A stretch of DNA of 64,000 bases from Granulicoccus phenolivorans DSM 17626 = NBRC 107789 = JCM 15570 (GTDB taxonomy: Bacteria > Actinomycetota > Actinomycetes > Propionibacteriales > Propionibacteriaceae), in assembly GCF_000423085.1 (NCBI RefSeq), contig NZ_AUHH01000024.1, positions 1 to 64,000 on the forward strand, written 5' to 3'. The notes below the pieces were generated by a model. That model did not search any database, was not told the origin of the DNA, and was given only the letters and a program-made list of their open reading frames with translations. Below are positions 14,421-44,775 of this stretch, piece after piece; the first letter of the stretch is position 1, and every line of letters begins with the position of its first letter. The position numbers and the translations under genes were made by a program.

Positions 14421-14502
14421 AGTGGGCCGATCCTGCCACCAGATGCCTTCGAAGGCCCCAAACCGGCCCGTTTTCCTCGTCTGGTGGCAGGATCGGCCCA
14501 CT
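14421..14502. repeat. 82-bp palindromic element, copy B (perfect arms)
   Basis: The 22-bp arms at 14421-14442 and 14481-14502 are perfect inverted repeats carrying CCGATCCTGCCACCAG. The 38-bp interior, read on the minus strand, has the central GGGCCGGTTTGGGG motif shared with the other copies. It sits between the start of the DUF2236 gene and the terminator of the 5'-nucleotidase gene. Confidence 0.92.
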
Positions 14503-28317: not shown

Positions 28318-28399
28318 ACTGTCCCGATCCTGACTCCAGTCGGCCTTCGGGCGCCGATTTGGGCCGGAATTCACCATCTGGTGGCAGGATCGGCCCACT
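28318..28399. repeat. 82-bp palindromic element, copy C
   Basis: Arms at 28318-28339 and 28378-28399; the left arm is diverged (TGTCCCGATCCTGACTCCAG), the right arm is identical to copy B. The interior has the central GCCGATTTGGGCC motif. It lies between the SPFH gene start and the terminator of the nuclease gene. Confidence 0.9.
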
Positions 28400-43760: not shown

Positions 43761-43842
43761 CCTGGTCCGATCCTGCCGCCAGAAGGCGAATTCATGCGAC
43801 TTTGCCCTCTGCGGCGAGGTCTGGAGGCAGGATCGGGACACC
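43761..43842. repeat. 82-bp palindromic element, copy D
   Basis: Arms at 43761-43782 and 43821-43842, partly diverged. The interior contains the stop codon of the DUF559 gene at 43792-43794. The right arm encodes part of that gene's C-terminus. Confidence 0.85.
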
Positions 43843-44712
43843 GCGGCGCAGTGCCAGCGCGTGCCGGATCCAGGGCAGGGCCCGATCTTCGAGGTGTTCC
43901 CAGGCCAGCCGGATGACCATCCACCCCTCGGTCTGCAGATCGTTGGATTTGGTCCGGTCGTCGATGAAGGCCCGGTGGCTGCGATGGAACTCCCATCCGT
44001 CGAACTCGATCGCGATCCGATGCTGCGGAAAGATCAGGTCGACCACCCAGCCGGCCTTCGAGACCCGCACGTTGGTGCGCCAGCCGGTGATTCCGGCCCG
44101 GCGCAGCATCTGGTGCAGCATCCGCTCGGCCTCCGACCACGGCCGGTCCCGGGAGTCCCGCAGAATCTGCCGCCGCTCCGGGTTGCCGGTGCGCCCCGGC
44201 ATGGCGGCAAGGGCGGTCCACATCTGGGCCAGCGCCTGCTCGGCCCGGTGCTCGCCACTGTGCAGCAGCACCTCGTCGACGACCGCACCCCCGAGCGCGG
44301 GGATCAGATCCACCGCGGTGTAGGCCGGCGTGGTGAACCGCAGCGTCGCCTCAGCGGTGAAATCCAGCGGGATGACCCGGCGCACCGCGGTGATGTGGTC
44401 GCTGCCGAAGCGGTGGCGGCTGGCGACGGTGAGCCGGATCGGTGGCTCCTGCTCCCGCCAGCCGAGCCAGCGGGCTCCGAGGCCGAGCACGATCGCGTCC
44501 GGATCCTTCAGAGCGGTCGCCCGGATCAGGGCCCGGGCGGAGAGCTCGTCGGAGTAGATGCCGGGGAGCAGCCGGATCAGGCCGCCCTTGCGCTGGAGCG
44601 CTCGGATGCGCGCTCGGTCCTGGGTGAGTCGAAGTACCTCCACACCGGGAAGGCTGGAAATTTGGGGCTGAATCGTGCGGTGCTGCTCGGGATCGTGTCC
44701 CGATCGTGACAC
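43792..44712 (-). CDS. DUF559 (Vsr-like fold) nuclease-like protein
   Basis: About 306 residues. The N-terminal part resembles the AbiEi-type winged-helix region (IRALQRKGGLIRLLPGIYSD), and the C-terminal half is a DUF559 domain related to very-short-patch-repair and restriction endonucleases: VVDLIFPQHRIAIEFDGWE, the DRTKSNDLQTEGWMVIRL segment and a closing helix. Asp, Glu and Lys of the presumed nuclease site are present. Start is uncertain: GTG at 44712 lies inside element E, GTG at 44643 is shorter. The stop and last 16 codons lie in element D. Such genes are common in actinobacteria; their role is unknown. Confidence 0.75.
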   Translation of the reverse strand: MSRSGHDPEQHRTIQPQISSLPGVEVLRLTQDRARIRALQRKGGLIRLLPGIYSDELSARALIRATALKDPDAIVLGLGARWLGWREQEPPIRLTVASRHRFGSDHITAVRRVIPLDFTAEATLRFTTPAYTAVDLIPALGGAVVDEVLLHSGEHRAEQALAQMWTALAAMPGRTGNPERRQILRDSRDRPWSEAERMLHQMLRRAGITGWRTNVRVSKAGWVVDLIFPQHRIAIEFDGWEFHRSHRAFIDDRTKSNDLQTEGWMVIRLAWEHLEDRALPWIRHALALRRGVPILPPDLAAEGKVA

Positions 44713-44775
44713 CAGATGCCCGATTCGGCCCGAATCCGGCCCATTTCGGGCATCTGGTGGCAGGATCGGCCCACT
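44694..44775. repeat. 82-bp palindromic element, copy E
   Basis: Arms at 44694-44715 and 44754-44775; the right arm is identical to those of copies B and C. The interior ends are also complementary (ATGCCCGA and TCGGGCAT), lengthening the stem to about 30 bp with mismatches. It lies between the DUF559 gene start and argS. Confidence 0.9.

Follow-up and report, generated by a model that had tools for sequence, protein, structure and literature searches.

A DUF559 nuclease gene bracketed by two palindromes in Granulicoccus phenolivorans, a candidate selfish mobile unit

The stretch of DNA analysed here, hereafter the window, comprises 64,000 nucleotides of the genome of Granulicoccus phenolivorans DSM 17626 (4.1 Mb in 74 contigs). 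At positions 43,761 to 44,775, a gene encoding a DUF559 nuclease lies between an MFS_1 transporter gene and argS and is bracketed by two palindromic elements, D and E; three related elements, A to C, stand alone elsewhere in the window. The closest named relatives of the nuclease gene are found in Microlunatus endophyticus and in a Propionibacteriaceae MAG. The features are as follows:

Element A, 336-415: solo palindrome, with spacer and flank common to copies near C5:123-202 and 644-723
Element B, 14422-14501: solo palindrome with fully complementary arms
Element C, 28319-28398: solo palindrome
Element D, 43762-43841, strand not applicable: 80-bp palindrome, CTGGTCCGATCCTGCCGCCAGA-36-TCTGGAGGCAGGATCGGGACAC, reaching into the nuclease gene over its stop codon and final 16 codons
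DUF559 nuclease gene, 43792-44643, minus strand: codes for 283 aa from a GTG at 44643, with an AbiEi-like N-terminal half and an EDxHD/Vsr-like DUF559 domain
DUF559 nuclease domain (residues 168-268), 43840-44142, minus strand: I-Bth0305I is the nearest fold of known structure (Z 12.4, rmsd 2.1)
AbiEi-antitoxin-like region (residues 1-165), 44149-44643, minus strand: matches 6y8q with Z 11.1 and rmsd 5.7; candidate for binding the arms
Element E, 44695-44774, strand not applicable: 80-bp palindrome, GTGTCCCGATCGTGACACCAGA-36-TCTGGTGGCAGGATCGGCCCAC, 51 bp 5' of the nuclease start, toward argS

D and E each consist of a 22-bp arm, a 36-nt spacer and an inverted 22-bp arm, the arm being GTGGGCCGATCCTGnCnCCAGA. 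An earlier, sequence-only reading of the segment had described a DUF559 gene between two 82-bp elements; the bracket is indeed observed, but the conserved length is 80 bp on re-measurement. The same reading rightly placed the stop codon and last 16 codons of the gene inside D. It also proposed a GTG start within E: this GTG is in frame but is probably not the start codon, as a 71%-identical paralogue supports the GTG at 44643, which lies outside E at a distance of 51 bp. The gene-facing arms of D and E are both GTGTCCCGATC, while the outer arms are CTGGTCCGATC and GTGGGCCGATC. This common inner subtype, to which attention had been drawn, turns out to be weak and uninformative evidence, since the two arms of one element (82% alike) are hardly closer to each other than arms taken across all elements (81%). 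The spacers of D and E are just 25-31% identical, indicating that the two are not recent sister copies. As a separate observation, contigs C22 and C5 open in one common repeated region, element A and its flank being near-identical to the C5 copies.

The AlphaFold2 model of the protein is confident, with a pLDDT of 92.9. Its nuclease domain aligns with the catalytic domain of I-Bth0305I over 94 residues, the next structural matches being the endonuclease-like 3hrl and then Vsr (1cw0, Z 10.2), and its N-terminal region aligns with AbiEi 6y8q over 155 residues, with an rmsd of 5.7 indicating that the domain orientation differs from that of AbiEi. Foldseek E-values are weak (about 0.002-0.004), and the assignment rests on structural alignment together with a Pfam DUF559 match; with the NCBIfam Vsr model TIGR00632, the protein scores 16.6 bits, below the cut-off of 97.85. 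Residues E173, D202, E213, D215 and D229 are invariant among 53 homologues, and comparison with the paralogue on contig C13 gives dN 0.25 and dS 0.64 (dN/dS about 0.39), from which the nuclease appears to have been kept functional. There is no DUF1814 toxin gene next to the nuclease gene. Both AbiEi and Rv2827c recognise 23-bp inverted repeats that come in pairs, through which AbiEi represses its own expression (PMC7319586), and the site on which I-Bth0305I dimerises spans nearly 60 bp (PMC3943268). Given the similar size of these repeats and of the 22-bp arms, and the dimeric site of I-Bth0305I, a dimer bound to the two arms is predicted.

An arm-pattern search combined with retrieved stretches of the genome yielded 47 elements, 44 with a 36-nt spacer and three with a 35-nt spacer. 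Chance is excluded by the number of arm matches, 12 versus 1.45 expected in the window and, over both strands of the genome, 83 versus 5 for the reversed pattern; in this genome search, arms practically always occurred as part of a paired 80-bp element. Dispersed solo copies make up 45 of the 47, and the window gene is the only DUF559 gene near any element. The elements are nearly all intergenic, about 87% of the genome being coding (gene-caller estimate), and the scattered copies lie between convergent (12), tandem (25) and divergent (6) genes. Median identity across copies is 81% for arms versus 42% for spacers, showing that the arms and the distance between them are conserved and that the spacer sequence is drifting; arm conservation is in part a selection effect, as the elements were searched by their arms.

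The sequence-only reading had envisaged that the nuclease could nick a hairpin, which was not borne out: arm variants often break pairing, and pairing reaches 85.5% versus 83.8% in column-shuffled sequences, so that double-stranded half-sites fit better than a hairpin. The sequences thus suggest that the two half-sites would be read as double-stranded DNA. A role as RNA hairpin or terminator was likewise rejected, because an Rfam search of the elements gave nothing at the gathering cut-off (weak matches with E 0.007 to 0.5 fell far under gathering scores), pairing barely exceeds that of shuffles, and gene orientations are mixed.

Copies are locally clustered, with 12 pairs within 5.5 kb versus 2.8 expected. 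Two sister pairs, L058 (spacers 92% identical, flanks 30%) and L050 (spacers 86% identical, flanks unrelated), have the pattern that copying of the 80-bp piece without its surroundings would leave, and some other sister pairs have flanks that are also alike, i.e., segmental duplication. No sign of target site duplication was obtained in the form of an excess of matching flanks for k=4 to 9, and k=3 gave at most 3 versus 1.1 expected. Two further observations concern the surroundings of the copies. An AMP-binding (acyl-CoA-synthetase-like) gene lies between the L050 sister elements (L050:6546-8479, i.e., C7:68545-70478 of this genome), and such a pair may perhaps be able to carry other cargo. 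Other elements sit inside long gene-free stretches with degenerate GC-rich repeats (CCGCGAACC..., CACCCGGTCACCACC...; L043:100-800, L048:6820-7300, L042:6840-7450), where they are duplicated together with the repeats every 320-520 bp.

The window's genome contains four DUF559 genes. According to the sequence-only reading, DUF559 genes without flanking elements would have refuted a partnership of gene and element. The exact element is indeed absent at the other three genes, but two of them have palindromes of their own alongside; the absence holds only for the dialect of the window gene and was not retained as a refutation. The C13 gene, whose protein is 71% identical, has an 82-bp palindrome of a related dialect directly upstream, and the C18 gene is flanked on either side by palindromes sharing their centre. 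Related palindromes are also present on both flanks of the Microlunatus gene, all of these having been detected by a sequence-independent palindrome search.

The same association was observed across the bacterial family, in a survey of 110 DUF559 loci where a palindrome was defined by at least 17 of 22 arm pairs. Forty-two palindromes lie no more than 100 bp 3' of the stop codon and 43 in the pair of 100-bp bins that surround the expected start, whereas the rate in the rest of these loci is about 2% per 100 bp; 28 of the 110 loci have no palindrome, even by a loose criterion. Palindromes are present on both flanks of 18/67 DUF559 genes versus 5/145 neighbouring genes (p=1.4e-6), and upstream and downstream flanks are similar for 23/67 versus 3/145 (p=1.8e-10). 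This neighbour-gene control is the one to rely on and is conservative, because neighbours share the palindromes of the unit, while a control with argS is small and noisy (a palindrome 3' of the stop in 3/17 loci). Flank similarity exceeds the 99th percentile of different-locus pairs in 30 of the 110 loci. At L231, L239, L281 and L287, near-identical direct copies lie on either side of the gene, their similarity being concentrated in the palindrome and stopping at its ends; L239 has GCGAGATTGCGTCCGATTCG arms, and L281 CAGATCCCAATCCGCTCCCC arms, on both sides.

These palindromes differ in sequence from gene to gene. In the window's genome, arms mostly start with GTGG or GTGT, and in other dialects with GCGA, CTGA, CGAA and others. 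Each gene has its dialect, the upstream and downstream copies often having equal arms, and the more similar two proteins are, the more similar are their arms (Mantel, 0/1000), such that genes and arms co-diverge. The proposed partnership of gene and element is thereby supported in a generalised form, in which each gene has its own palindrome dialect. Among class-level DUF559 loci, the strict palindrome signal is weak, which limits the claim mainly to the bacterial family of the window. At the phylum level, using a subfamily profile, flanks are more alike than 99% of mismatched pairs in 6/24 loci, and several of the pieces that these flanks share fold as hairpins (L391, L389, L382). The association is thus strongest in the window's family and probably present more widely.

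Solo copies are also found in relatives. In genome G063, the dialect of the DUF559 unit, GAGATTRCGTCCGATTC, has 19 arm matches versus 0 for the reversed pattern, four of them belonging to the unit itself, and about 10 other palindromes, each some 75 bp long, lie more than 1.5 kb from any DUF559 gene. Genome G110 has a bracketed unit and several solo copies of its own dialect, and in G073 (genus g9) the dialect GATTTGCGCnCCAGA occurs beside a DUF559 gene and alone elsewhere in the genome.

An empty site was observed in genus g17, in the space between a yccF-like and an EF-G-like gene (named by sequence reading). In G016, the gene is present there between palindromes of 86 and 88 bp; G063 has at the same spot a unit of another dialect, in the opposite orientation and with 75-bp palindromes; and G096 has only about 20 bp, with neither gene nor palindrome. 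The joint absence of the gene and both palindromes argues that the palindromes are part of the inserted segment, i.e., its ends. This evidence comes from one place only, where the species are about 83% identical, so that exact junctions and any target duplication are unresolved; for the argS region of the window, a clean empty site is not available from any close relative. Together with the family-wide survey, this syntenic site supports the earlier suggestion that gene and elements form one unit, of which A to C are solo copies.

In our judgement, the segment is probably, with appreciable room for doubt, a copy of a selfish, REPtron-like mobile unit built around a homing-type nuclease, whose palindrome would be at once its recognition site, its ends and its offspring. 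The two 22-bp arms of a palindrome would serve as inverted double-stranded half-sites at a distance of 53 bp, or about five helical turns, each occupied by one protein monomer, and the arm-bound protein would then cut the DNA. Host repair of the break would copy the unit, or the palindrome alone, to a new intergenic place, and solo palindromes would be either non-autonomous offspring or leftovers of units whose gene has disappeared from between the repeats. Arm binding by the protein, cleavage at the arms and spread driven by that cleavage are all inferred, as no binding, cutting or movement has been observed, and mobilisation of the elements by the nuclease, already raised by the sequence-only reading, likewise remains an inference. 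Moreover, a nuclease without strand-transfer activity does not alone account for insertion at new sites.

The AbiEi fold of the N-terminal half, the autoregulation of AbiEi via paired 23-bp inverted repeats (PMC7319586) and the position of the upstream palindrome near the start codon would also agree with the palindromes being operators, through which the AbiEi-like half represses its own gene; the scattered copies would then be a regulon or decoys, and the nuclease would serve host defence or repair. However, palindromes are as frequent 3' of the stop as 5' of the start, the scattered copies occupy convergent, tandem and divergent spaces alike, gene and both palindromes are jointly missing from the empty site, and some sister copies combine near-identical spacers with unrelated flanks. 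We consider this reading unlikely, though not to be dismissed; autoregulation could in any case be an added role of the AbiEi-like half.

It is also conceivable that the gene is a free-standing homing endonuclease gene with a conserved intergenic target, its palindromes being by-products of repair at the cleavage site rather than ends or substrates. A homing endonuclease is the closest fold, and units of two dialects do occupy one intergenic site in two species. Many solo palindromes at unrelated places, which hold a fixed length and arm sequence, and the co-divergence of palindromes with the protein nevertheless make this doubtful. Least credible, and by now quite improbable, is an ordinary host gene beside REP- or MITE-like repeats moved by an unrelated, perhaps lost, transposase, with the bracket due to coincidence and a preference for gene ends. 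DUF559 genes are common, other genes such as that of the L050 AMP-binding enzyme also lie between two copies, and copies cluster locally, all of which would fit; but a bracket with gene-specific dialects recurs family-wide against strong controls, which largely contradicts this reading, no Y1 (RAYT-type) transposase gene was found in the window's genome, and arms are essentially absent outside the paired element.

The selfish palindrome-nuclease unit that we favour resembles several known systems and differs from each of them in some features. To our knowledge, REP-like palindromes have so far been linked to RAYT transposases or have no known enzyme. As in REPtrons and REPINs, the gene of a DNA-acting enzyme is bracketed by palindromes that also occur solo between genes, with paired inverted arms, a variable spacer, a lineage-specific arm sequence and no target duplication seen. 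However, RAYTs are HUH tyrosine transposases, whereas the window unit encodes an AbiEi-EDxHD nuclease; its arms were not seen as singlets, and no constant GTAG/CGTC tag is found across dialects. A RAYT as partner was considered and rejected, since the Y1_Tnp profile PF01797 has no match in the window's genome and, although it matches in 5/29 genomes, all of genus g9, no DUF559-type palindrome lies within about 1.5 kb of these genes. In g9, a Y1 transposase gene (L127:2300-2395) is accompanied by REP-like repeats of its own, CCGCCAnAATnnGGCGG, which bear no relation to the DUF559 palindromes.

With EDxHD homing endonucleases such as I-Bth0305I, the unit has in common the catalytic fold, the acidic residues, a likely dimer on a long target and an intergenic mobile gene; unlike them, it lies outside any intron or intein, has an AbiEi-like half and is flanked by full palindromes that are also found alone. 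Like MITEs, the elements are short, non-coding, intergenically dispersed and have terminal inverted repeats, but they show no target duplication and their spacer is fixed in length and divergent in sequence; among larger units bearing such arms, only the one with the nuclease gene was recovered, from an assembly of 74 contigs. Vsr shares the catalytic fold, and a DUF559 domain is present in Caulobacter VsrA (PMC12907096), whereas the window protein has the extra AbiEi-like half and bracketing palindromes and falls far short of the Vsr cut-off. AbiEi and Rv2827c share the N-terminal fold and are known to bind paired 23-bp inverted repeats; the window protein differs in being fused to a nuclease and in having no adjacent DUF1814 toxin gene.

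Literature searches, which mostly did not cover subscription journals, returned no earlier description of such a palindrome-nuclease system; the DUF559 literature, as far as its titles and abstracts go, contained nothing on palindromes, and the word palindrome is absent from the text of PMC12907096. This kind of selfish mobile unit is therefore provisionally regarded as previously undescribed. More tentatively, and as a possibility on which we remain undecided, it may represent a class of mobile elements, widespread among Propionibacteriaceae-like Actinomycetota and probably among others of that phylum, whose AbiEi-EDxHD nuclease, without a transposase partner, would spread the palindrome that it recognises, as the ends of the unit, its recognition site and its non-autonomous offspring, the two co-diversifying into species-specific dialects. 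Here, another class of enzyme, a homing-type nuclease that includes a DNA-binding half, accompanies lineage-specific palindromes across a bacterial family. If true, the selfish unit would explain why DUF559 genes are both common and patchy, would assign a role to a domain so far classed as of unknown function and would provide dozens of natural enzyme-site pairs, with targets of about 80 bp, for studying the co-evolution of nucleases and their sites.

A minor feature of the elements lies beyond their ends. Absent by eye in the first relatives inspected, an (A/C)CC trinucleotide was noticed genome-wide 13-15 bp beyond both element ends in the window's genome, with A in 46/80 and C in 57/80 flanks, and possibly reflects a target preference or an extra protein contact.
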